Shown here: one piece after another, positions 5,285-52,677 of the stretch
Position numbering within the stretch: the stretch's first letter is position 1
How the letters are laid out: the number at the start of each line of letters is the position of its first letter
DNA from: Isoetes taiwanensis
Taxonomy: Eukaryota; Streptophyta; Lycopodiopsida; Isoetales; Isoetaceae
DNA: 64,000 bases
Direction of reading: 5' to 3'
Assembly (NCBI GenBank): GCA_021234155.1
Contig: JAJEKV010000055.1
Span: forward strand, 851,090 to 915,089
Translations under genes and position numbers: made by a program
The notes under the pieces: model-generated
Database searches by the model: none
What the model was told of the DNA's origin: nothing
What the model saw: only the letters and a program-made list of their open reading frames with translations

Positions 5285-8200
5285 TTATGCAGCATGTTTT
5301 GCATCAAAGTTATTTGCTGATGCTCTTGTGCATTTGATTTCAAGAAGCTTCTTGGATATGGTCCAAGGGAAGCTTAAAAGGCGGACATGTTGGGAATTCC
5401 AGTAGCCAGGATCATATGTTACAGTATACCAGGCTGAAGCCTTCGCATTTTGTTCAGCAGCTGATTGAGAACCGTCACCATAAAACCAACTTTTTACTTG
5501 GATCTGAAGCTGTTGTAATGCAAACAAAATTCTCTCCTTTGTATCTTCTGATCTCTTCCCAACCCTGTCATTGTAGTGTTTGTTATGATGTTTTGACAAC
5601 TTCAAAATGAAACCACTCATAATTTCTGCCTCATTTTCAATTCCATACTGTTCCATTATAGTTGTCAGCTTAGTATCATAGTGGCTTTTAAGTTTCAGAG
5701 CTTCATCTACATAACTTTCAAATCCATCCACTCGCATATCATTGTCATACACCATATCTACTGTCATAACTGAAAGCCTTCCTTCAACTTCCTTTATGGC
5801 TCTAAACAACTTTCCAATAACTGTATTGGAAGGATAGCTAAGCTTGTCTTCTTTCTCCATAAAATCCGGATATATGAAAGGCCGCAGATTAATTGGAATC
5901 GAAGCTGGAGTTCCCGTTTTGGGAAAATCCACAGCAACAGAGAAAAGCTCAGCAAGAAGTATACAGTTCTCATTCATGGCCTTATTAACTTCCTTATCAG
6001 CATGGACCAAGTGGGCATTTGCAATCTGACCTAGACCATCATTCAACATGTGGTTGACAAAAAATTCTTGAATCTCCTAAAAGCAGATAGAAACGCCGGT
6101 TAGGACTATGGCAAGAATGAAAACATTTTATTGAAATTTCATCAACCTCAGAAGTCACTGAATGATCCAGCACTACAGCCGGCGTTGCACAATAATTCAT
6201 TGGAATGTATCCTGCTTTTGGAATAAGGTCTGCATCCCAACTTACAAAATAGATATCTCCATCTAAGTCACTGCCAGAGCATTCATTTGGATGTGGTCTG
6301 CAGTTACATGACTTTCATGTTAGAAAACTAAACAAAGAAAAGAGCCCAAACTATAATTCCGAAACAGAATTCTGTTCTTTGAAAAGAAGTAACAAGGTTT
6401 CCAGAATAAACAGGGCGTCCAGATCCAAATCATCTCCTAGAATCCACAGGTTTTAGAGTACGAACGTTTGGAAATGGCTTGACAAAACCTCCAGGACAGC
6501 TTGATTTATTTCATTCTTATGCATCACTAGCTTTGTTAATGGTGATGAAACTGTTGAACGAAGTAATGATAAATGGCATTAAGGATAAAAAATGGTGGAA
6601 ACTACCATAGCCTTTCTAGTCAGAATTGTATGAATAAGATGCCGGATTATCTGAGAATATGTAGTCAAATATAAAACCAATCTTTTTTCTAACTTCAACC
6701 TCGTAAAACAAACAATAAGGCTTACAGAAGCTGGGTATAAAACTTATATGAGTTAACTTGACTTTGCACACAGAGTTGTGAATTACATTTACGACTTCGA
6801 TCAACTGTATAAATAACTAGTCACAACAGAGTTTCAAATGTGTGCCTACCTGTCTCCTTTTTGAGGAAAGACAATGCAATCAACCATATGGCTTAATGCT
6901 GGCACATCAACAGCTTTCAATATTAGAATATCTCCAGGGTGAAGACACGGGTTCTTGGCTACAATAACCTTTCCTTCTACCACAGTAGCTGTATCACGTT
7001 TGGTAACGCCCCTCTTAGATTGAGGCTTCCCCAGACCATCATCTAAAATATGGCAGGATCCTGGGGTGGGCGAAACTTGTATAAAGACTTCGCCATAATT
7101 GAGCGTCCCTGTCTCATCTAAACAGCCCAGTAAGCATCGACCTTTGGGTACAAGAATCCGAGATTTTGTTCTTAACATCAAGAGCTGATAGGCTTTGAAA
7201 GCCTGCAGCAAACTATTTAAATAAGGCTCAGTGCGTGCATTGTATCCTGCTTGAATCATCTCTACAATGATTCTGTGTGTGTCCCCTGAGCATCCTGCCT
7301 GTAAGATTTCCATTGCCAATAAAGGATCTTCTAGAAGGTTATCGAGATGTTCTACAGCCTCCTTCTGCATTTTCTCAAAAACATAATCTTCTATACCCAA
7401 AGTGGACAATAAGATAATCACCTGACGGTTTAAATAGCATGGAATATAGCGACTCCAAAATAGCACATCTAGGCTAGTACGGTCTGATGTGAACTTGCAC
7501 ATGCTGTCTCGTAAGGATAGCTTTGCAAAGGATGTTGGATCTACTGCTACAACACCTTTATATCCCCCATACCGTATCTGAAAAGCTGATGGAACATGCT
7601 TTGTAATCCCACATTTCTCAGCAACCTGCATTGCAAAAGCTTTTGAAATCTTGCCAATACCATCCGAAAAGATGTATTCTTGATCACCGACAATTTTAAT
7701 AATATCTTTTATACAAGAGACCTCGTTAGAAAATACATCTAGTGAGTGCATAGAGCTGGAAAAGCTCTGGCCCATGCGGGCAGCACACTTAGCTACATTC
7801 TTTATGTTATGAAAATCACCCATCCAAGCTCGGATGCTTTCAGCAGTCGTCTCTCCAGACTTCGCAAACATCCAGCATGAGTGCTCACGAAGCTGGCTAT
7901 TGGAAAAAGCTAAAAACTCAAAGTGCTTATCCCCAACCTGAATGCCTGTCCTCAAGACATTAAGAAAATGGTGGTAAACATCAGAAACCATGTCTTCTAC
8001 TGATGCCCCAATTGAGCCAGGGGTAGGAAGGGACAGTACAGTTGGTTGAAGTCTTTTCAAATCTTCATCAACAAACGACACTCGGACAAAGTTATCATGC
8101 ATGTTGGCATAGTTCCTGGTAACACGATTTGATAAATCAACTTCTGGTTGCATACAATAAACCTTACTTGGTGTTACCAGTATGCGATTGACAAGCATAT

Positions 8201-9559
8201 AGCCATCTCCCAATGTGATAGGCGGCGAGCATTCGTGAGAAGAGATCATTCCCTGAAGAGTGGTGAGTGGATCAAAACAAGTGCTCTGGAACCTAGACAG
8301 ATTTTGCAGCAGAGAAACCGCTAGATCAGGTTTTAATGTACTGAGAAAATTATAGAACCTATCTGTCAAACCAGATGGACTGAGGTTTCCCCATTGTACA
8401 AGATGGTTTACAGTGAATATAAGCCTTGTTGAAAAACCAAACGAGGGAACTTTTAAAATAGGCACAACTACCTGCATAGAGGCATAATGAGATGCCTCCT
8501 CTACCAGTAGTCTATTTGAAACAAACCTTCCAGATTCTCTATGGAAAATTGTCAATGCATTCAAAGTTTTCCTATATTCAGCAGAATCCTTACTGTGGAA
8601 GCCAAGACAGTATACAAGAGATTGCCCAATACTTTTTAATGGCGTAAAATCTTTTGTTCGTGTCCATTGTCCTGGGTCAACTTTGTAATATCTATAATTA
8701 TCAGGATACCCCGTAAACCGATTCAAGCATTCCCCTGCCTTCTCAAGCAAGGATGTCATGAGCTGAAGCATACGGTCATTTCTCTTCATTTCAGAGATTC
8801 TCATGTAGATATGAGGTGGATTATACACCTGAATAAGATGAACTTACACAGATAAACAAACTTAGGCTTTCATCATCTATAAGCTTCACATCCTACTTTA
8901 CAGTGCACGTTCACAAAGAAAGAAAGGTCAAGAAGGAAAGCATCTCATACCTTACTCCATCTGAAAATTTAATTAGGCAGAGAATAGAACTTTGAATTGT
9001 TATAGAAGGTGCAAAATTTGGCACAAACCTTTAGTAAAACAGCACTTAAATCTTCTTTGTCTATTACAGTCTCACCAGCGCTCAGAATATCTCCAGATTT
9101 GAACTCCATTTTGTATTCAGAATCAGATACAGGTTCTCTCCACAGAATGCTAACGTCAGAAGTTTGGCAATCAACTTCAAGTACAACATTACCGGAAGCC
9201 CGCCATAACTGATGAAAGCACTCCTCGCTTTTCAAATTACCCAAAAGCAAATAAACATTCTCTACTCGTACAATTTGTTTTGGAGGGGGGAGAATGAGTC
9301 TCAAAGAACGATCTGCCCGTAGTCTATGCCCATCAAAAATAAGATCATTATTTTCTGCTGATGCCAGCGCCCGCGCAGCCTGATCTTCTGTTTCAAACTG
9401 GACATATCCAACCCCTTTAGACTTCCAGTTGTAGTGCTCTGTTACAACATTACATGCCCAAACAGAGCCTTTGCCGATCCTGGACTCCAAAAACTCAACC
9501 AGCTCCTGAGCATTGGCTGTAAAGGGGATATTCGAGAGGTGGATGACGGAGTTAGCCAT
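5285..9559 (-). CDS. RDR: RNA-dependent RNA polymerase (RDR1/RDR2-type, DLDGD clade)
   Basis: Copies RNA into double strands that feed small-RNA silencing. Exons on the minus strand: 9559-9029, 8828-6850, 6297-6147, 6076-5285. The joins keep phase and use GT-AG sites, giving 1151 codons including TAA at 5285; RDR1 and RDR2 are about 1100-1135 aa, so the length is full. Residues 1 to about 90 form an RRM-like domain (VIHLSNIPFTANAQELVEFL). The core holds FSDGIGKIS near residue 565 and QIRYGGYKGVVAVDP near 594. The small third exon encodes HPNECSGSDLDGD, so the catalytic Asp triad motif is intact at about 847-851. The C-terminal part (AWYTVTYDP, LLSFPW) also fits RDR1/2. No premature stop or frameshift was seen, so it looks functional. 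Whether it is RDR1 or RDR2 I cannot settle by eye. Introns are 200, 552 and 70 bp. Confidence 0.95.
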
Positions 9560-9568
9560 GGGTTTTTC

Positions 9569-9799
9569 AGAATGTATGATACCGGGACTCCATTTCTCAA
9601 CAGAAAATTTCGGGAAAAAAATTCGCCAAAAAGCCTAACATTGGACTCCACTGCTCTACACGTATATAAACCAATGCTCTAATACGTACCTCGCGATGTA
9701 AACCAATGCTCTACATACCACACATACATGGAGTCCCGGTATCATACATTCTAAGGTTTTAGGCTAACAGAAAATTTTTCCCGAAATTTTCTGTTGAGA
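9569..9799 (-). repeat. two interlocked 25-bp perfect inverted repeats at the RDR start
   Basis: Arm A (9569-9593, beginning AGAATGTATGATACCGGG) is repeated in inverse as A' (9728-9752). Arm B (9595-9619, beginning TCTCAACAGAAAATTTCGGG) is repeated in inverse as B' (9775-9799). Both pairs are perfect over 25 bp. The order is A-B-A'-B', so the two stems cannot both form as one simple hairpin. B' also contains a local 10-bp stem (CAGAAAATTT / AAATTTTCTG). The block starts 10 bp upstream of the RDR ATG and fills its 5' UTR and proximal promoter. Confidence 0.85.
9660..9671 (-). promoter_or_regulatory. possible TATA box of the RDR gene
   Basis: Read on the minus strand the bases give GGTTTATATACG, a good TATA match about 100 bp upstream of the ATG, inside the loop between the inverted repeats. 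A 13-bp motif (AACCAATGCTCTA) occurs twice nearby. No transcript data support the site. Confidence 0.4.
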
Positions 9800-36769: not shown

Positions 36770-38251
36770 GCTTTGCATAGTATACAAGGCTTTAAGCCCA
36801 CCTTCGATCCTCTGTGCTATGCATGTATTGCATCTATGGTTTCGATTTCCAGCCCAAGGTATTTATAGGATTCACAAGTCTGAATTTCAGCCCCATTGCC
36901 TAAGAATCCCAACTGCCATAACCTTTGTTTTCTCAAGGTTCACCTGCATATCGGTATGATCACAAAAGGAGGCTAATGCATCAATGTGTTTCTGCATTTG
37001 TTCAGGAGTACGCGCAAAAATGACCACATCATCAGCATACATTAGCAATCTTACCACATAATCATGCAAAACCGTACCATCTCCTCCATTCTCAGTAAGC
37101 CATTCGTCCAGACTATCAATGAATAGTCCGAACAACGTAGGAGATAAAGGGCATCCCTGTTTAACTCCGATATTACTTAAGATTGTCTCAGGAACATCTA
37201 ATAAAAAGGGAAATGATAACTGCACAAGAACTTTTTCATATAATGTTCTTACCGCTTCCCTAAGATCAACAGGTATCTGTAATTGCTCCATCCGTCTCCA
37301 TAATTTATCTCTGGATATCTTATCAAATGCCTTTTTAAAATCTACAAAAAGAATGTAAACTGGCTTCTTCTTACCCTTAACCAAATCCAATGTAACAAGG
37401 TAATCTGTTGTGGATCTATGAGCACGGAATCCTGCCTGAGTTTCAGATCTGACATGTTTCTCTTCCGTCCATTGGCTTAGTTTCTTCTCTATAATAGTGG
37501 CAAATAATTTAGAGAATAAGCTACTAATCATCAAGGTACGGTAATTATTGGTTATTGTAGGGTCACCACCTTTCCAAAGAGGTACAATCTGCCATGAAAG
37601 CGGAAAGCCTTGTTTAAGCACCAAGTTGAGTAATTTCTCCACTCCTACATATAGTTCTTTGCTTTCCCATTTCAGCAATTCAGCCCCAAGATCATGTGTG
37701 TCTCTCGCCTTACCATTTGATAATCTTTTGATTCCATCCTCAACGTCCTCCATGGTTATGGACAGGTCTGATTTGCCCCTTATATCTTCACCTACGCCTG
37801 CTACATGATACAAATTATGTACATGTTGCCATAGCTCCTGCGCAGTAATGGCTACATCATTAGCTTTTTCCTTTTTCATCCTATTCCAGAATTTTTTTGG
37901 CTCCTTGAGGTATTCTTGGACGAGCTGCTCTTGTCTCTTAAAGAGATATGCACGTTTCTTCTTCCTTATTAGTTTTGCTAACTCCTTTTTTAGCTTCTTT
38001 CTATTCTCTCCTTTTGCCCTTAAAAAACTCTTTTTCAATTCTTTACAGTCCCCATCATACCATGCATTGCATTGTAATCCCTTAATAATGCGTTGTGGGA
38101 CAAAACATCTGCTGGCAGATTCCACTAACATCGAGGCAATGGCATCAGATAAGCTAGGAGCATCATCAGGCCAACACATGTTTGCAATAGCATGCGCAGT
38201 ATCCTTTCTAAAGTGTTCGGCCTGTTTATAATCATATCTTATTCTCGGCAT
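36770..38251 (-). pseudogene. LINE ORF2 reverse transcriptase domain
   Basis: The frame 38251-36887 carries the EN-RT linker (AWYDGDCKELKKSFLRAKGE) and the RT palm: NGKARDTHDLGAELLKW, PLWKGGDPTITNNYRTLMIS, AGFRAHRSTTDYLV, motif A FVDFKKAFDKISRDKLW, GVKQGCPLSPTLFGLFIDSL and motif C LMYADDVVIFA. The catalytic Asp residues are present. After NLEKTKVMAVG the frame shifts and YKYLGLEIE follows in another frame, so the ORF is broken even before the insertion. Confidence 0.93.
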
Positions 38252-38277
38252 GTGCTTTGCCTGTGTTGCTTTATGTG

Positions 38278-39099
38278 CTATAGAACCAAGAGTATTGGAA
38301 CATGATCGGATTCAATCCTATCATCCATAACAATAAAATCCTGGATATATTGAGCTGTACCTTCTCCACATATAAGGTAGTCCACCACACTTCGCTGTCT
38401 ACATGTGAAGCCTCCTGATCTCGGGTATCTGCTTATGCCATTCATGATGCGCATATTAGCACTACTACATAAATTCAATAGTTGCCTACCTGTTTTGGTC
38501 AGAATTGGATCTGCTGATGTGTGTCTCCAGCCACTTATTTCCAGCGTATGCTCATCTTCAGCCTCAAGCCACAGATGGTATTCAGCATCAATATAAGCCG
38601 TGGCTTGTTTATGTTTTGTACGTGCATTAAAGTCTCCTGTTATGATAACCTGGCCCTTTTCTTGATATACCATGATATCCTGCTCCAAATTATAGAGTGG
38701 GTCATCACCTGAAGCATCCAGTGCAGCTGCATAAGCCTGATTATGGCGCGGTGCAAAATAGCAGATTGCCATATATGTGATGTTCATTCCTCTAGTGATC
38801 TCTATCCACATGTATTGGTTATTTCTGTCCTTTCTTACCCGTTTGACAATATGCACATACTCTTCCCGAATATAGCAAGCTACTCCACCATTGCCACAAT
38901 CACCCTGTTTAAATCTTGCATTCTTAACTGAGTAAATATTTTTAAAATTTTCAATTTCTGGCAGCCCAAACAGATCATGCTCTTTAGTTTCTACAAAGCA
39001 AATCATGTCTACTTCATATAAAATATCTTCCATACTGATAATCTTATCTACTGTAAGTCTATTAATATTCCATATACCTATCCTAAAGGTCTCCTGCAC
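38278..39099 (-). pseudogene. LINE ORF2 apurinic-type endonuclease domain
   Basis: Starts MQETFRIGIWNINRLTVDKI and shows the APE-like endonuclease blocks in order: CFVETKEHDL, GGVACYIREE, VIITGDFNAR, VVDYLICGE and SDHVPIL. The catalytic E, D, N and H positions are kept. The ORF ends at VPILLVL-stop; the RT continues in a different frame 27 bp on, so one frameshift separates the domains. Normally EN and RT are one ORF2 protein. Confidence 0.93.
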
Positions 39100-39250
39100 T
39101 CCTATGTTTCAATCACAACCTTCCCCTTTCTCCATGTGACTTTCTTATTATTGGCTCTAGCTTCCTTCACTTTCTCTAATTCCTATTTCTTTTCCATCAT
39201 TTGTTCTTTTGTCAGATCTTCATTGATCCAAATGAGCTGGTCTTTCACTT

Positions 39251-42474: not shown

Positions 42475-42990
42475 GAAACCATAGACCATATATCCCTAAA
42501 ATAATTAAATGGTTTGTTATTAAAAATAAAAATGAGAAAAAGAATTCAAGACACGTCAGCTCATTGGGTATATTAGTTAAAATAGTCTTATTAGGACATT
42601 GATTTATTTTGATAGAGGTTCGAGCCCTCGTATTTCATATTTTAAAACCTTAGGCCAACTTGTGTAGAGGTCCGATACGAGTTTGCCAACTTGTAGGCAA
42701 ACTCGTATTTCATATTTCAAAATCATAGGCGCCCCCAATCATCTGAAACCATAGACCTTAAACAATTGATTGGGTTGTTAGAAAAAAAAGATAGAAAGAA
42801 TCACGTTAACTCGCCGGGTATAGTGGTTAAAGTAGTCTTATTAGGATATTGAGTTATTTTGGTAGAGGTTTGAGCCCCTGTATTTCATATTCTAAAATCT
42901 TAGGCAAAGTTGTATAGAGGCTCGATATCCTCTCGAAACCTTAAGCAAACTCATATTTAATATTTCAAAATCATAGGTGCCCCCAATCAT
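42475..42990 (+). mobile_element. tandem pair of tRNA-derived SINE-like units (about 269 bp each)
   Basis: Unit 1 (about 42475-42740) and unit 2 (about 42744-42990) align end to end. Each holds a Pol III A box (TAGTTAAAATAG at 42574; TGGTTAAAGTAG at 42824) and a B box (GGTTCGAGCCC at 42617; GGTTTGAGCCC at 42867), both with exactly 31 bp between boxes. Each ends in CAAAATCATAGG followed by GCCCCCAATCAT. This spacing is that of a tRNA-type promoter. Confidence 0.75.
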
Positions 42991-43194
42991 AAATAACTAT
43001 AAGCGAAAAGAGAGGTGCCCAGAGGCCCCAACATACGGTCTGGGCCATAGGATTGATGGATCCGACGACTATAATAGTCCAGGGTAGCACAAAATGTTTT
43101 GACATGTTTATCCATGGAACACACCATATTCCACCATCTTCACCCCGATCTATTCAAACAAATCTCTGGATGTTGAGCTACTTCTACTACCATT

Positions 43195-45364: not shown

Positions 45365-46144
45365 CAAGTCCAGCCCTTTAGGCTAAAAATTGCCTCAGTT
45401 CATTTAGAGGTCTTTCATTTCAATTCAATTAGAAATGGCCTCAATTCATTTAGAGGACTTGACACCTTTATATATTTTCATAGATAAAGGATGGCAGATA
45501 ACTTGCAAAGTTCGCTCATACTCCTCCACAAGATGTTCATTTACGTCGTACTGTCCATGTTCTGCGATAACTCATCAAACATTGTTAGACTAACGAACCC
45601 ATCCTAATTAATGTGGTTCCTCTGATTTGCGGTTTATGCCATTAACATATCTTTCAATCCATCATGACTGTAAGTTATAAACTATGGATTCTTCTCCTTT
45701 AGACACGTATTTAAACCACTAGTGACTCTATAACTTTAAAATAAAATGTGGTACGACCCTTTATTTCAGTAATACGGCAAGCATAATCGCTCTATCCTGA
45801 CCATCGAAAAAGGGCATATTCTTAATCATATGCCCTGTCCCTAAACCAGAACCGTCCAACCCAAGTCAAGATGGGGTCAAAATCCTATTTCCACGTCACC
45901 CTAAGGTGCATGAGAATGTATTCGATTGAAGTCAACTGTGTACATACACACAAGTACCAAACAACTCAACCTGTTCTGCAAACATACAGTTAAAGCAGCG
46001 TGTCTGCAATGAATCAATATTCTGCACAACTGATTTACAGGGGAGCCGTCTACATGCAAGCCCAAGCCTACCTCCCTTCACAAACTGCACACCAACCTGC
46101 TGCACATGCTACGGCAGTTCATAACATAATAAACACAGAAATAA

Positions 46145-46245
46145 GATAATGAAGCACGAGGAGTTGAACCTCGCTGGCCGAAGCCAGTACCCTGATGCTT
46201 CGCCAACCATAATGGGGCTCCCCAAAGGGCTCCCCATTATGGCAG
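46145..46245 (-). mobile_element. tRNA-like SINE head with compact hairpins
   Basis: Minus strand: A-box-like TGGCGAAGCATC, a 5-bp stem with TTCG loop (CTGGCTTCGGCCAG), a T-arm with B box (CGAGGTTCAACTCCTCG), and GAAGCA/TGCTTC closing a three-way junction. No anticodon arm, so it is not a working tRNA. Next to it on the + strand lies ATAATGGGG..CCCCATTAT (46211-46242), a 9-bp inverted repeat around duplicated GGGCTCCCC. Confidence 0.55.
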
Positions 46246-46622
46246 GGGGCTAATCCCGTGCAAATGATCAAACAAGCAAATGCACATGCAATTAAGTTAA
46301 GAAGGAAAATTCAGCAAAACATTTTTAACTTTTCGTAATGCACTGTTCATGCTCCATGCACACCATGCAATGCAACTACATGAAGGAAATAGCAGCAACA
46401 AACAGTTCAAAGTTCCACAACAGATCACTTGACATCAGTTGGTTGTAATGTTTAAAGCCTTCGCGTGCCTCCTCGCAAGCCTGTCCTACGCATGTGCGCA
46501 TGTTAGAGCCAGAAGAGATGACAATGGAATTGCAACATCATACCAAAGTACCTATCAATATGCCTGAATTCTCGCAGCAGCAGCCCCCGTGCCAAGTTCA
46601 TATGACTTCTAAGTGCCTGCCT

Positions 46623-47343
46623 TTATCTTGTGGAGACAACGACCTCATCCCACTCCATAGTACCAATTGTCTCTTCAAGTTCATGAAAGAGACGACCCAA
46701 TTGCATGCGCAGCAAACGCACGGATGCTGCAACAGTTTCAGCAAGTGTGTTTATGTTAACAACGCTAGTGAGTAATTCCGATGCCACATGGGCATGTTCT
46801 GCATCTGGAGATGCTATACTAGGATGTGGCAGGCCATTGGAAATAAGGCTTTCTACAGAAGGGTGCTGAGGAGCAGCAGGTTGAGGCAATGGAGGCTCAG
46901 GGGGTCTGTCAGGAGGTGCAGATAGATCAGCCACTTCTTGGTGCCCATTCTCCATCTGGGCATCCGGAAACAATGGCATGCATCTAAAGTCAGTACTGTA
47001 ACCCTACAACAAAAAAAACATGCTGCAGAACTAAAAGAGAGGGAAATAGCATTCATCGAAAGGGCTTACTACTGCCAAGTAACATAAACATAAATTGCAG
47101 AACTAATGATCAATTCACAGCCATTGTGTAATCAACACAATCCAAGGAGATATAATAAGCTTGCTCAGAAGTCCCTTCCATTCCAGGCCTGTATTCATTG
47201 TCATCAATGTCCACGAAACCCTCATCCCCATCTCCAGGACTGGGGACATCATCACAGTACCTCTTCCGTGCCTTACCTATTTGCTCCACAGGTTGCATAC
47301 CTGCAGGAACATTAAAAATCACACATCGTACGTCACTAGGCAT
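46623..47343 (-). CDS. second ORF behind the HUH-Rep gene, unknown function
   Basis: Starts MPSDVRCVIFNVPAGMQPVE three bases after the Rep frame's last stop. It continues as an acidic segment (DGDEGFVDIDDNEYRPGMEG) to YTMA; a donor at 47118 and an acceptor at 47004 join it in phase to GYSTDFRCMPLFPDAQ. A Pro-rich stretch follows (PPDRPPEPPLPQPAAPQHPS), then an amphipathic C-terminus (ETVAASVRLLRMQLGRLFHE). Splice sites are by eye; the ATG-to-stop 78-codon ORF alone is the alternative. No known domain. Position suggests it belongs to the same mobile element or transcript as the Rep. Confidence 0.4.
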
Positions 47344-47346
47344 GGC

Positions 47347-48410
47347 CTATGAGGGATTGAGAGTTATTCTCCATGCAGCCTTCACCCAATGCTCTGAAAT
47401 AAAAGCACAGTTAGTAGGCAAGATTCATTGACTAGACAAAATGAATTTGCCAGTCCTGAGCATCCGGCATACAGTATAAACCAGAGAAGCAGTCAGTTGC
47501 TTCCTGCCATGGTATTTAACAAAGTGATGAGCCCTGTGCAACAGATTTTTGTTATCCAACACAACGACACTCTTCAAGTCACCTGCACCATGAAGCAGAT
47601 AGAGATCCTTCCCCATCTCGACCTGCCTCTCAGAAACATTATGCAAACAAACCTTGAAATGGACTTTACCAAAGTCCTTTAAACAGTATCCTACTAATCC
47701 CTCAAAACAATGCATTCTGTTATTTTTAAGCGCCTTGCATATCAGAAGGATGCCCGCCGGTCTTTGAGCTCCCCACCCAAAGAACCTCTTGATGGCAGCA
47801 TTTACGGCACGAGGAGTCTTCAAGGTGGTCCTAAGCACCCCTTGGCAGTGCAAGTGGTCCAGGTCTGATCCCCTTTCAAGGGCTACAGCACCAGCATCAG
47901 TCTGGGTCTTCAAGAAATCCACAAGTTTCTCAAACATGGGAAGGGGAACATTAGTCCCAGCATAACCCAAAGTAAGGCTTACATCCAACAAACCGGTTCC
48001 CTCATCCTCACCCTCTACTCTACCCCTACCCTTCGACATACCCTCCCTATCCCCCCACAGAAAAAGCATCATCAACACAAGGGAATTTAGCTTCAGGAGG
48101 CAAACTCTGTTTTCTAGATCTAGCTGCCCTCTTCAACATGTTACCTGGGTTGCAGAATAGCACAGCCGAAACAGAAAATCCAGTATACCAGCAACACAAC
48201 AAGCACAGAGCAAGGATGAAGGCGACCTCCAAAGATTTGCCAAGACCAGCCGATTCACACCACATAAATATGAACCACTCCCACACAACATCCACAAAAA
48301 CAAACACGACACTCACCTGCTACTGCAAGACGGCATGCCGACGGCCTCCTGAGCTGTGGGCGGAACTCCATCTCCTCTGATCCATCCGCTCCACGCGGAC
48401 ACGAAGGCAT
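47347..48410 (-). CDS. Rep-type HUH endonuclease (Replitron-like), probably decayed
   Basis: HUH enzymes nick and rejoin single-stranded DNA with a catalytic Tyr and start rolling-circle replication or transposition. The frame 48078-47425 shows the three Rep motifs in order: motif I-like DVSLTLGYAG, motif II DLDHLHCQGVLR (the HUH His pair) and motif III GYCLKDFGKVHF (Tyr plus Lys). They lie at about residues 33-40, 75-77 and 131-134 counted from 48078. A likely first exon 48410-48317 (starts MPSCPRGADGSEE; donor GTGAGT) joins in phase to 48144, but a run of six G (48051-48056) puts that exon one base out of frame with the HUH domain. After FILSSQ an in-frame TGA (47427-47425) interrupts, and the frame continues to EHWVKAAWRITLNPS and TAG at 47347. 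No Walker-type helicase follows, unlike geminivirus or other CRESS-virus Reps. MSKGRGRVEGED (48039) is an alternative start. Confidence 0.7.
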
Positions 48411-48599
48411 CGCCACGACTGGCCTACTAAAAACTGAAATTTCGAAACAAAATCCTACAGACCATTGAAGGACCAAAACCCATATGTTGACATCAGACTT
48501 ATACCAAAATAGCATACGAATACACTTAGAAACCTTAGGAAACCTTATGTAACACCAGACCAAAATAACATTTTGGAAACTTAATAGATGAGATTAGAT

Positions 48600-50817
48600 A
48601 CATGCATTTGCAAATTAACTTTATTGGACAAATTTAATTGATTAGTTGACTGGTAGTATCAAAATAGTAATAATAAATCAACTTTAGAGGAGGTGGGATA
48701 ATTTAGCTATTCTTTAAAACCAATAGTGCTCAAAAACTTTACCACACATTTAAACAACTAGTTCTCATTAGATATAAAGTCTTGCCCCACTTAATGCTTT
48801 GCATTGAGCGGATATACCTTAACAAGATTCATGTTTTGAGATCTTCATAAATAACGTTATGTACATATATGGGAAGAAGGGGAGACATAAATTAGTGGCA
48901 TAATAATTTGAAGATGCTTTGGAGGCCATGGGAGCGACCATGTGCAAGAAAAAAGAAGGTAGTAGACAATGAGATGATAGATGCGTAAATGGAATTCATT
49001 ACATTGAATTTAAGAAGCAAATGGAAGGGAGAATACAGTCATGAATGTCCACACCACTAGAATGAAATATGGATGGGAGACTGGTCATAAGTAACTCGAC
49101 AAGCATTGTTATCTCATTTGGGAGCACAATATGCATGAATTCATTTAGTTGTTGCTAAAACCTATGACTATGGGAGGTATATATTTTTGAATGAAATGCT
49201 TGATTTTACAAAGTCAAGGGTATTAACTCGCATCTACAACAGTACATAAGATCAATGGCTTTTAGAAATTTCTTTGCATGCATTGGGCAAAGAACTCATG
49301 GACCAACAAGGATGCTTATGAATGACAAAGGTGGCATTAATTGGTGCTTTGCTGAAGTTTGACATCCAAAGTCTAAGCATGCCCTCAAGCACTATCATTT
49401 TGCGAGGAATCTTGTGGTTGATGAACATGTTCAGATTGAGCATGTTCATACACGGACAATATAGCAGATCTCTTGATCAAGCCTTTGGCTCATAATCTCT
49501 TTGAGCGACATCAACTTGATATTGGTCTTCATAGATTTCAGATCTCATCTCCATTTAGCATGGAGATGGTGATCTCGCATGCAGAGGAGCATCAAGATAT
49601 ATAATATGGAGATCACAATCTTGCTACTAGTTGTGATGTATCAACACTGATCCAACACTCATCATACAGGTGTTGGACCAGGTGGGCTCTCTGATATCAG
49701 TGTGCATCCCTTCTCTCCGTTGACAATAAAAAATATTCTATTATATTCTTCTTTTCCTTTGTGCAACCTTGAAATTTTAAATAGGTAAAGTCCTCTTGGC
49801 AACCATTCTTTAATCATTTTAAAGTGATGCTAATACTCACAAGTACCCTCTAATTATTGAAATATAAGAAGTAGTATCCAGACTAAAACAAGTTATTATG
49901 ATTCTAGTAATGATACAAGTTATGCAAGTAATGGCTTTGTTCAATGCAAATACAACATACTGAATCTAATTTTCCTCCTCATCACAAGCAATGTTGTCAA
50001 ATTGATAAATTCCATGCATAAAAAGGGCCTTATGTCATTTCCTAGTATTTGAGAAAGTTGTTAAACAAGCTTTCAAATATAAAAACTTGGGCATTCACAC
50101 AATGCGTATATGAATAGCCCAAAATCTGCAACATGAGATCCAAATCCAGATATAGCTTGTAGAAAACTTTATATCTAGTGTTCCAATCAAAGAGAGCCTT
50201 CTTCTTGCATGTAGCTGGCTTCCCAAGGTCTCATTCAGCATGTATTTTTAGAGGAGCAAGTTATGATTATCATCGGAGGAAAAACATAACGACTTGTCCA
50301 TATTTCCATGAAACAACAATCACACCTTTACTTAGCATGTTATGTCTGAATACAATAGCAGCTCCATGTGAAGAAAATCTAAGCACATGTTTTACATGCA
50401 AACCTAGTTAGCACGCTTGTCTAACGTTCGGGTTCTGCCTTACTACCTTTTTGAACATCAAGAAACTTAGGTAAGCAAATCATCATAAGCATGCCTCATT
50501 GGTCACCAAAATAGCAAAATGCCTCATTGGTCACCTCATAGGTAAGCAAAATAGCATGTTTACGACCATTTCACCCGATGCCCAAATCTCATGCATTGGA
50601 TGAATTGAATATACATCAAAGCCAGCGAATTGTTTTGAGCAACAACGAATCGAGCTAATTCCTGACCATTCCCATGTCATTTATAAAACGTGGCAAGAAC
50701 TTCTTGCTTGAATGAACTGGGTTACTTGCAGACCAAACTTCAATCTGATTAAAAAGCATGGAAAACGCAATGAAATTTAATATTTGGCAATTAACTAAAG
50801 GGATAAGTTAGCAGATA
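48600..50817. other. no gene seen
   Basis: AT-rich sequence with chance ORFs. Patches near 49250-49500 look retroelement-derived, but nothing could be assigned. Confidence 0.45.
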
Positions 50818-50901
50818 TTGCAAAACCCTAAATACATTATCCCAGCCCATTTTGGAGGGAAAAATCGTTGCTCGCAGAGGAGCCCAGGTCGAAGAAATCT
50901 C

Positions 50902-52677
50902 ATGGAAGAAATCAGTAGCGACCCCGCAGGTGATTTTGCCTTCAAGTTTGGAGATATCCAGACTGCAGATGTGGTGCTCAGGCTCGAGCCAATGGAAGGT
51001 GAGACATTTGCACTCTTGCATCTCCATTCCCAAGTCCTTCTTCAATCAGAATACTTCAGAGCTTGTCTTTCAGAACGTTGGGCATCAAGCAATGACAAAC
51101 GTCCTTTGCAGCTAACTTTGGACAAGTGCAAAAATTTACATGTATATGTAAGATGTATGGAACTGATGTATGTGCCCAAAAAATCGCTCCGTCGTTCTCT
51201 TGGCAGCGTTGAGGAGGCTGTTGGGGTCTTAGAGGTAGCCGCCCAGCTTTTGTTCCACGCTTGTATCACTGCTTGCATGCATTATCTGGAAATTGTTGCT
51301 TGGAGCATTGAGGAGGAAGAATTGGTCAGGTCTTGCATTTCTACCTTCCATTTAACACCCACTCCAGGTCTTGCAGATAAGCTCTCTATACCTGATAACC
51401 CTGTGGATGTGATGAAGAAAATTATTCTTAGATTGATTCGATGTGGGGCCAGGGATGATGCTGAGAGAACGATGATAGACAATATTCAGCCCATCTGTTT
51501 CCCCACATTTGGAACATTGAACGATGTCATTCTGCTGGAAGAGTTTCGACATGTTACGCAGGTGCTAATTAGCGATTTGCCATTTGGGGTTTTGGAAGAT
51601 GATGTATTGGCAAATCTGGCATCTCATTTGGAGTGGATACTTAACCAATTGGATAAATGTCAAGTTGCTGAGGAAGTATTTAAAATACTTGCTGATGACC
51701 AGGAAGTGATTGATGGTATACAAAATGCATGTGGGCTTAATTCTTCCTTTATGAATCACATGTTTGAGACACTTCAAAATGGAAAAGTGATGGTATCAAT
51801 TGCAGTGAGAGTGGCCCTCCTAAGGAAATGGTTGCCTGATATTGCTCGACATTTTTACACGTCTTTGAAGGGTGAATTGCTTTGCAATGTTGTTAAATCT
51901 CTGCCAATGATGAATCAGGAGATGATTTTTAAAGTCTGCATTGAGTCCTGGTGTGAACTGTATGGGGTTATGGAAGAGGATGCAGTGCCATCGTGGATAC
52001 TTGACAACTTCGATGAATTTGAAGTTGCTGAGAGAGCATTCGAGATATTTGCTGATGAAAAAGTGGTTGAATTTCAAGAGAGAACAATATATTATCCGGT
52101 TACAGTTTTTACCTTTGCGAATCGTATATTTGAGGCACTGCAAAATGGAAAAGTGATGGTATCCATTGCAGTGAGAGTGGCCCTCCTAAGTAAATGGTTG
52201 CCTATTATTGCTCAATATGATTGTAAGCTTCTGAAGGGTAAATTGTTTTGCAATGCTGTTAAATCTCTTCCAATGATAAATCAGAAGAAGATTTATAAAG
52301 TGTGGATTCAGTCTGACTGTAAACCACAGATTCTTGAGGAAGCTTTCGATTGCTGGTGTGGGAAGTTAAGGAGAACTAGCAAAGATCACAATGCAGAACC
52401 TTCAACTTGTGGGAAGTTGAAGAGAACTCGCAAAGATCACATTGCTGAACCTTCAACTCGTGGGAGGTTAAGGAGAACTCGCAAAGATCACAATGCTGAA
52501 CCTTCAACTCGTGGGAGGTTGAGGAGAACTCGCAAAGATCACATTGCTGGACCTTCAACTCGTGGGAAGTTAAGGAGAACTCGCGAAGACCACAATGATG
52601 AACCTTCAACTCGTGGGAAGTTAAGGAGAACACACGGAGATCACAATGCTGAACCTTCAACACCTGAGCCAATGTAA
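50902..52677 (+). CDS. BTB/POZ-domain protein with repeated C-terminal tail
   Basis: Single open exon. In-frame ATGs occur at 50818 and 50902; I prefer 50902 (MEEISSDPAGDFAFKFGDIQ) because the earlier stretch is not conserved-looking. The N-terminal BTB fold (TADVVLRLEPMEGETFALLH, LHSQVLLQSEYFRACLSERW) normally recruits substrates to CUL3 ubiquitin ligases. A helical region follows with an internal duplication: LQNGKVMVSIAVRVALL, KWLP and NVVKSLPM occur near residues 310-370 and again near 430-490, with high identity at DNA level. The last 100 residues are six 17-residue repeats (GKLRRTRKDHNAEPSTR). It resembles the plant BTB family of the At1g63850/At3g05675 type in its first part. The intact 592-codon frame argues for function; no intron is seen. 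Confidence 0.82.
   Translation: MEEISSDPAGDFAFKFGDIQTADVVLRLEPMEGETFALLHLHSQVLLQSEYFRACLSERWASSNDKRPLQLTLDKCKNLHVYVRCMELMYVPKKSLRRSLGSVEEAVGVLEVAAQLLFHACITACMHYLEIVAWSIEEEELVRSCISTFHLTPTPGLADKLSIPDNPVDVMKKIILRLIRCGARDDAERTMIDNIQPICFPTFGTLNDVILLEEFRHVTQVLISDLPFGVLEDDVLANLASHLEWILNQLDKCQVAEEVFKILADDQEVIDGIQNACGLNSSFMNHMFETLQNGKVMVSIAVRVALLRKWLPDIARHFYTSLKGELLCNVVKSLPMMNQEMIFKVCIESWCELYGVMEEDAVPSWILDNFDEFEVAERAFEIFADEKVVEFQERTIYYPVTVFTFANRIFEALQNGKVMVSIAVRVALLSKWLPIIAQYDCKLLKGKLFCNAVKSLPMINQKKIYKVWIQSDCKPQILEEAFDCWCGKLRRTSKDHNAEPSTCGKLKRTRKDHIAEPSTRGRLRRTRKDHNAEPSTRGRLRRTRKDHIAGPSTRGKLRRTREDHNDEPSTRGKLRRTHGDHNAEPSTPEPM
52366..52665 (+). repeat. 51-bp coding minisatellite, six copies
   Basis: In-frame units marked by GGGAAGTTAAGGAGAACTCG and CAAAGATCACAATGC encode the basic BTB tail. 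Copies differ by few substitutions, so the array is young. Confidence 0.93.

Follow-up and report, generated by a model that had tools for sequence, protein, structure and literature searches.

A dead full-length Replitron in the lycophyte Isoetes taiwanensis, with a probable separate companion ORF in its intact relatives and a variable, reiterated 3' tail

Replitrons joined the known transposons only recently; their founding account is reportedly that of Craig in PNAS in 2023, and to our knowledge their mechanism is still open. Several other systems use related enzymes: many Helitrons carry two tyrosines, IS200/IS605 elements combine TnpA, a single-tyrosine HUH enzyme, with hairpins near both ends (likewise the case for the element described here), and the Reps of CRESS-DNA viruses show the same layout of HUH and Tyr/Lys motifs. 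The passage on Replitrons in PMC10741241 (section 25) describes elements of 0.9-4 kb that lack a helicase and terminal inverted repeats and occur in lycophytes, and the same source reports target-site duplications of 2-8 bp and direct terminal repeats of 5-11 bp.

The window, by which we mean the entire 64,000-nt stretch of DNA analysed, contains on its minus strand a frame that an earlier note on this DNA had read as an HUH nuclease. That reading is borne out: the frame at 48039-47425 encodes 204 aa and contains DHLHC (residue 61) and GYCLKD (residue 117), and the open stretch at 48132-47425 comprises 235 codons, a length equalled by none of 1000 dinucleotide shuffles of that stretch. The parts of the domain are as follows.

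47425..48039, minus strand: HUH frame named in the earlier note, with the Replitron_HUH domain (Pfam match and motifs)
47848..47856, minus strand: HUH motif, HLH of DHLHCQG (His pair invariant in alignment A1)
47677..47688, minus strand: Tyr/Lys motif, YCLK of GYCLKD (Tyr and Lys invariant in alignment A1)

A profile search of this frame returned Pfam PF21859, Replitron_HUH (67.1 bits, 2.4 times the cut-off of 28.5; E 2.5e-18), as the only matching Pfam family up to E 1, and the same family was matched by all eight ORF1 sequences of alignment A1, which were picked for diversity. Within A1 (n=8) H95 and H97 of the HUH motif and Y151 and K154 of the Tyr/Lys motif are invariant, and the window frame retains every catalytic residue; copy L027, which lies outside A1, has lost the Lys of the Tyr/Lys motif. 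Matches to PHROGs were weak (E 0.08 and 0.35), no NCBIfam profile matched, and a sequence search of solved structures with ORF1 gave no match. Relatives of the HUH protein were likewise sought among 5.8 billion proteins, in which plants are represented, by a search that needs shared short words, and none was scored; nor was any protein relative scored in viral contigs and prokaryote genomes. A structure model of ORF1 from the single sequence reached a mean pLDDT of 39, too poor for judging the HUH fold.

An HUH-type nuclease with one tyrosine could also derive from an integrated geminivirus-like single-stranded DNA virus or be the remnant of a Helitron, which according to the part of PMC10741241 devoted to them are likewise eukaryotic HUH transposons with a hairpin near the 3' end. 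However, Replitron_HUH was the only family matched, and no viral Rep profile gave a match. The claimed absence of a helicase also stands, as none was detected in 13 scanned window frames (3 plus 10 of the 32 frames of at least 60 aa, the ten lying at 44.5-52.7 kb) or in 8 ORF1 and 6 ORF2 sequences; we thus find neither a Rep with a superfamily-3 helicase, as in geminivirus-like and CRESS-DNA virus Reps, nor a Rep/helicase fusion. Helitrons moreover have no target-site duplications in the same source, whereas the element described here has them, along with its single tyrosine. We consider a viral or Helitron origin highly improbable.

Copies of the element are abundant in the genome. Searched against 1,658,258,908 bases in 1110 contigs, the 235-aa frame yielded 3906 first-look candidates, of which at least 150 were scored as matches (the window copy among them); the poorest of these has an E of 3.3e-71, and about a dozen show 90-95% identity across nearly the whole query. 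From these we fetched 20 of the closest copies with their flanks, together with 8 divergent copies. Aligned to the window, 14 of the 20 reach the 5' end and 12 the 3' end (a count that includes L012, which is rearranged), and homology ends at, or a few bases from, 48585 (5') and 45783 (3'). Nucleotide searches with the two ends place these limits similarly. At the 3' side, 38 of 39 non-self matches, among the best 40 of 315 candidates, end at 45783 and the other one base later, and at the 5' side 35 of 40 non-self matches (of 123 candidates) begin no more than two bases from 48585, 23 of them precisely there. Such sharp common ends define an element of 2803 bp, which bears the following ORF1.

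45783..48585, minus strand: whole Replitron copy, 2803 bp, with its 5' end at 48585/48584 and its 3' end at 45783 (limits of copy homology)
47110..48139, minus strand: ORF1, HUH endonuclease, broken here (unbroken frame in intact copies)
47110..47346, minus strand: C-terminal part of ORF1, severed here by a stop and lying outside the companion ORF (joined to the HUH frame in intact copies)

The element is therefore a multicopy mobile element with fixed ends whose length falls within 0.9-4 kb. Its 5' end is fixed (TTAAG/TTAGG); no inverted repeat of at least 14 nt joins the mapped ends. As regards direct terminal repeats, at most ATTAG is common to the 5' end and tail unit of some copies, none of 5-11 bp is clear, and a scan of the window copy for a repeat combined with a duplication performed no better than shuffles. 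The earlier suggestion of a Replitron-like element is upheld by the presence of PF21859 in every ORF1 of A1 together with the multiple copies, defined ends and target-site duplications, and since Replitron identity holds, the alternative of a related unnamed element becomes superfluous.

The window copy itself is a broken relic, dead but full-length, and this decay had been missed in the earlier note. In intact copies (e.g. L011, L017, L019) ORF1 is a single frame of about 340 codons that opens with MLKR.AR, takes in the HUH domain and closes with DYTMAVN before its stop. The window copy of this frame is offset by one base in a G run near 48050 and meets stops at 47427-47425 and again at 47349-47347. 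One could suppose that an HUH frame with all of its catalytic residues kept is a domesticated host gene of Replitron origin, maintained for a cellular function; yet the offset and several stops of the window copy are absent from its relatives, and such broken frames contradict this explanation, as do the full transposon ends and the fact that this is one of at least 150 scored copies. Domestication thus has very little probability in our estimation, and we retain the reading of a dead transposon, with high confidence that the feature is a full-length Replitron whose intact members encode ORF1 and a separate ORF2.

Comparison with intact copies also revises the gene model. A spliced first exon had been proposed with the junction 48316/48145, yet this splice leads to a stop at 48047 after 63 aa and does not reach the HUH frame; four other, weaker AG sites (48128, 48119, 48113 and 48104) would join the proposed exon to the HUH frame in frame, with no further support. 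An apparent intron at 47472-47394 (TACTAAC...TTTCAG) was dropped because intact copies read through it as coding. For the second, proline-rich ORF, the earlier note had proposed two exons separated by a 47118/47004 intron. A companion ORF does exist, at 46979-46623, while in other copies the stretch upstream of it (47346-47110) encodes the C-terminal region of the HUH protein, so that the two-exon model falls. The components of ORF2 are as follows.

46623..46979, minus strand: ORF2 (MP..., proline-rich, then a conserved helical-looking tail), shortened by a stop at 46625-46623 (copy comparison and omega)
46435..46480, minus strand: remnant of the last ORF2 exon (...LARRHAEALNITTN), beyond a putative intron (reading of the DNA)

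ORF2 was found in the close copies and in five divergent ones (L029, L030, L032, L035 and L036), in which the last exon is contiguous, without an intron; the HUH proteins of these divergent ORF2-bearing copies in A1 share 49 to 70% identity with its first row, a close copy. Where the start is clear it reads MP(M/G/A), no start codon having been identified in L035 and L036, and the protein is proline-rich, with a conserved, helical-looking end, LR.HMNLARALLLRELR.ID, and a length of roughly 150-200 aa in intact members. Median Nei-Gojobori omega is 0.12 for ORF1 (38 of 78 pairs usable; among the sequences compared, L025 is locally shifted and some N-termini were left untrimmed) and 0.17 for ORF2 (48 of 78 usable), and on these values both frames evolve under purifying selection. 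The window copy taken singly is unconvincing, given that the length of ORF2 is reached by 25 of 1000 shuffles on that strand and by 73 of 500 on either strand, and that codon usage in this copy did not single out the ORF2 frame; consequently, only the comparison of copies settled the matter.

The relationship of ORF2 to ORF1 merits closer consideration, as the intron of the earlier note implied that both form one spliced protein. Nine close copies do have an acceptor-like GCAG 4 nt before the ORF2 ATG, preceded by a TACTGAC-like stretch, as this arrangement would require. However, the ORF1 stop lies 6 nt past DYTMA/DWTFD in 15 of 15 frames that have this motif, among 29 sequences examined (elsewhere, e.g. 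in L009, L016 and L034, the frame differs or is cut), the possible donor at the end of ORF1 is not always GT (L012, L032), and the distance from GCAG to ATG shifts phase between families, from 4 nt to 2 nt in L029 and L030 and 5 nt in L032. The spacing and the constant stop argue for an ORF2 start of its own and against an in-frame fusion, and we consider a single spliced protein unlikely. That ORF2 is simply the tail of ORF1 was also considered, and rejected on the position of the stop and the spacing between acceptor and ATG. ORF2 is accordingly best described as a separate, conserved ORF, and the earlier gene model as wrong in detail.

Six ORF2 sequences matched no Pfam family of weight (best E 0.03) and no TnpB, and no solved structure matched; the absence of a TnpB match, the eukaryotic host and the target-site duplications set the element apart from IS200/IS605. 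Five divergent ORF2 sequences contain an acidic stretch (VIEISDSSN, VINIESDEE, VIVLSDSSDE and similar), which we take to resemble a SUMO-interacting motif.

Behind ORF2 and close to both ends of the element lie several predicted structures, followed by a terminal unit.

48560..48576, minus strand: 5' subterminal hairpin, CCAAAA...TTTTGG (in 14 aligned sequences, window included)
46207..46242, minus strand: long hairpin upstream of the tRNA-like fold (97.8% of cells paired, 13 copies)
46150..46202, minus strand: tRNA-like three-way fold with acceptor, extra arm and T arm (covariation; sub-threshold mascRNA likeness)
45811..45836, minus strand: 3' subterminal hairpin, AGGGCATAT...ATATGCCCT (three pairs changed on both sides)
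45783..45798, minus strand: 3' terminal 16-nt unit, AGGATAGAGCGATTAT, single in the window (copy comparison)

Covariation in the 5' hairpin is weak: it amounts to a single cell, a count that 132 of 500 shuffles reach, and shifting the pairing by 1 raises the score. The 3' hairpin is moderately supported, its number of pairs with double changes being reached by 18 of 500 shuffles in a set of 18 of the 22 sequences found, plus the window; a version slid by 2 has a higher covariation score. In the block behind ORF2, 46270-46140 folds as a single strand far better than its shuffles (z -4.5, 0 of 200), and in a folding scan corrected for GC content 46151-46250 ranks third among the window's non-overlapping stretches. 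Across 13 copies (of 17 matching sequences, L009, L014, L025 and L026 being left out) 96.3% of cells pair and 16 cells are changed on both sides, neither value being reached by any of 500 shuffles, and the covariation score also exceeds all 500. Other measures are weaker, with the number of pairs showing double changes reached by 38 of 500 shuffles and that of pair types by 384. These patterns indicate a putative tRNA-like structure that covaries, and the many one-sided changes to G-U suggest that it is RNA. The Rfam mascRNA model aligns with the distal half over its full length, with scores of 19.4 bits (window), 22.1 (L017) and 16.1 (L028) against a cut-off of 42.5, and ARAGORN found no tRNA in the window.

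Shorter relatives lack much of this sequence. Paired positions of scored end matches reveal at least nine elements of 1.14-1.23 kb with both ends. Seven such elements from six loci keep 98-216 nt of the 5' end and 125-425 nt of the 3' end of the window copy, and no open stretch exceeds 129 codons in the five that were measured; these non-autonomous copies of about 1.2 kb have therefore probably been moved in trans. By BLAST the tRNA-like fold is kept in four of the seven (L063, L064, L066, L068) and absent from L067 and from both elements of L065, and its loss in three short elements implies that it is not needed for the movement of all. Several arrangements of copies were also observed. At L065 (C1076:1978200-1981500) two elements follow each other in head-to-tail orientation, and the start of the second falls inside the first element's 3' tail or immediately after it, an apparent insertion at an element's own tail. 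Upstream of L009 (C1032) a Replitron 3' end is followed by a fragment of roughly 200 nt that corresponds to 48257-48059 of the element, and a full copy begins directly after it, an arrangement that is either nested or due to template switching. L035 and L036 belong to a divergent Replitron family with a long Gly/Arg-rich (RGRGR) N-terminal region in the ORF1 frame, and L036 appears to comprise two copies in tandem.

Target-site duplications were sought in 24 copies by looking for the k-mer that ends at the 5' junction within 60 nt past the 3' unit; the two elements of L065 were left out, though both of their flanks are known. The summed length of the matches is 79, against 47.3 (sd 8.6) for shuffled pairings, none of 2000 of which scored as high. 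Clear cases are CAAAATGGTAA (C1100), TGCACA (C10), TTGCCA (C919), CTTCTA (L021), AGTCA (L019), TGCCA (L015) and TGCTA (C1032c), and these measure 5-11 bp counting a shared A, the one of 11 bp exceeding the reported range of 2-8 bp. Six of the 24 copies, that of the window among them (with L009, L018, L067, C1090 and C1039), have no anchored match, and a further five have a match of only 3 nt, which is the chance level. The base preceding TTAAG/TTAGG is A in 22 of the 24. Duplications of this kind imply a staggered cut of the target. An unoccupied version of one site was also identified: the repeat occupied at L023 is found empty at 43083-42837 of the window, the empty site being AATATCCTAATAAGAC and the filled one AATGTCCTA|TTAAGTTTCC. 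The window repeat concerned, at 42587-43083 on the minus strand, has two matching stretches and is interrupted by a Replitron elsewhere, at L023.

The 3' end differs in character from the 5' end. The tail unit behind the 3' hairpin measures 16 nt, as in the window, or 17 nt (AGGATTAGCGATTATAG), and 41 correctly anchored copies contain from 1 to nearly 3 units, at least half of a further unit being present in 35 of the 40 other than the window copy. These counts rest on 41 of 45 rows (L010, L018, L020 and L060 were wrongly anchored and excluded) and concern copies chosen by their likeness to the window. Among 24 rows with the 17-nt period the array ends at 14 different positions, each of which may be a few bases off, as the script tolerates one mismatch. 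L063 and L066, whose 3' ends are rows L041 and L042 of this count, are 98.1% identical over 1201 nt, and yet their tails comprise 2.35 and 2.94 units and their targets differ; tails thus vary between insertions. L075 and L077, 9.3 kb apart and with different 5' flanks, form the one convincing pair with sequence in common past the tail (11 nt), which could be flanking DNA brought over from a donor site. Two other pairs were not accepted as cases of such carry-over: L044 and L045 have their whole flank in common, as in a duplicated segment, and L052 and L054 share a short stretch only and were not counted.

A loose, reiterated 3' end implies that termination is not one precise cut. As the preferred reading of the tail we propose that the unit is multiplied by slippage, or by being copied repeatedly, as the element inserts. 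LINE retrotransposons have tails that vary likewise, yet no reverse transcriptase is encoded here. The HUH/Tyr site of ORF1 would nick one strand at the 5' end (TTAAG), helped by the terminal hairpins, and would hold the nicked 5' end of that strand; nicking and holding in this way are described as general HUH enzyme chemistry in the relevant part of PMC13231165, and the fixed 5' end fits ORF1 nicking on the grounds of this chemistry. The freed strand would then be displaced or copied and become linked to the target at a staggered break that follows an A, its 3' end being set so loosely that copies end after one to three terminal-repeat units. ORF2 would be translated from its own ATG, probably via splicing to the acceptor just before it, and might serve as an accessory factor that could hold single-stranded DNA or provide a link to host machinery. 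More tentatively, and with somewhat less than even confidence, we suggest that a precise, enzyme-defined 5' end is combined with an open 3' end whose unit is recopied at insertion and joined at an arbitrary base, perhaps with the aid of ORF2. If true, a recopied, open 3' tail would represent a new way to finish HUH-driven transposition, and the variable tail may record how each insertion ended.

Compared with the Replitrons of the PMC10741241 passage, the element agrees in its HUH domain, lack of a helicase, length of 2.8 kb, lack of terminal inverted repeats, target-site duplications and lycophyte host, whereas the conserved ORF2, the variable reiterated tail and the tRNA-like fold are absent from that passage. 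Within the parts of the literature searched, a scope outside which the founding Replitron paper falls, there is no account of ORF2, the open 3' tail or the tRNA-like fold, and the founding paper may describe one or more of them already. We file the element as a new Replitron family, since all features tested agree with a Replitron apart from direct terminal repeats, which are not clear. The conserved ORF2 would be a second component of the Replitron system. The genome holds a large Replitron set with intact autonomous relatives, mapped ends and target-site duplications, which we call partly young because two non-autonomous copies are 98% alike.

Other features of the window include a gene for a plant RNA-dependent RNA polymerase whose N-terminal domain is of the RRM type (5288-9634, minus strand), the best relative of its main frame, at 52% identity, coming from the lycophyte Diphasiastrum, and a LINE-type retrotransposon with endonuclease and reverse transcriptase frames (36890-39108, minus strand). 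On the plus strand, 50812-52674 is open for 621 aa and has a weak BTB-type match that falls short of the cut-off, its C-terminal part being encoded by six 51-nt tandem repeats.
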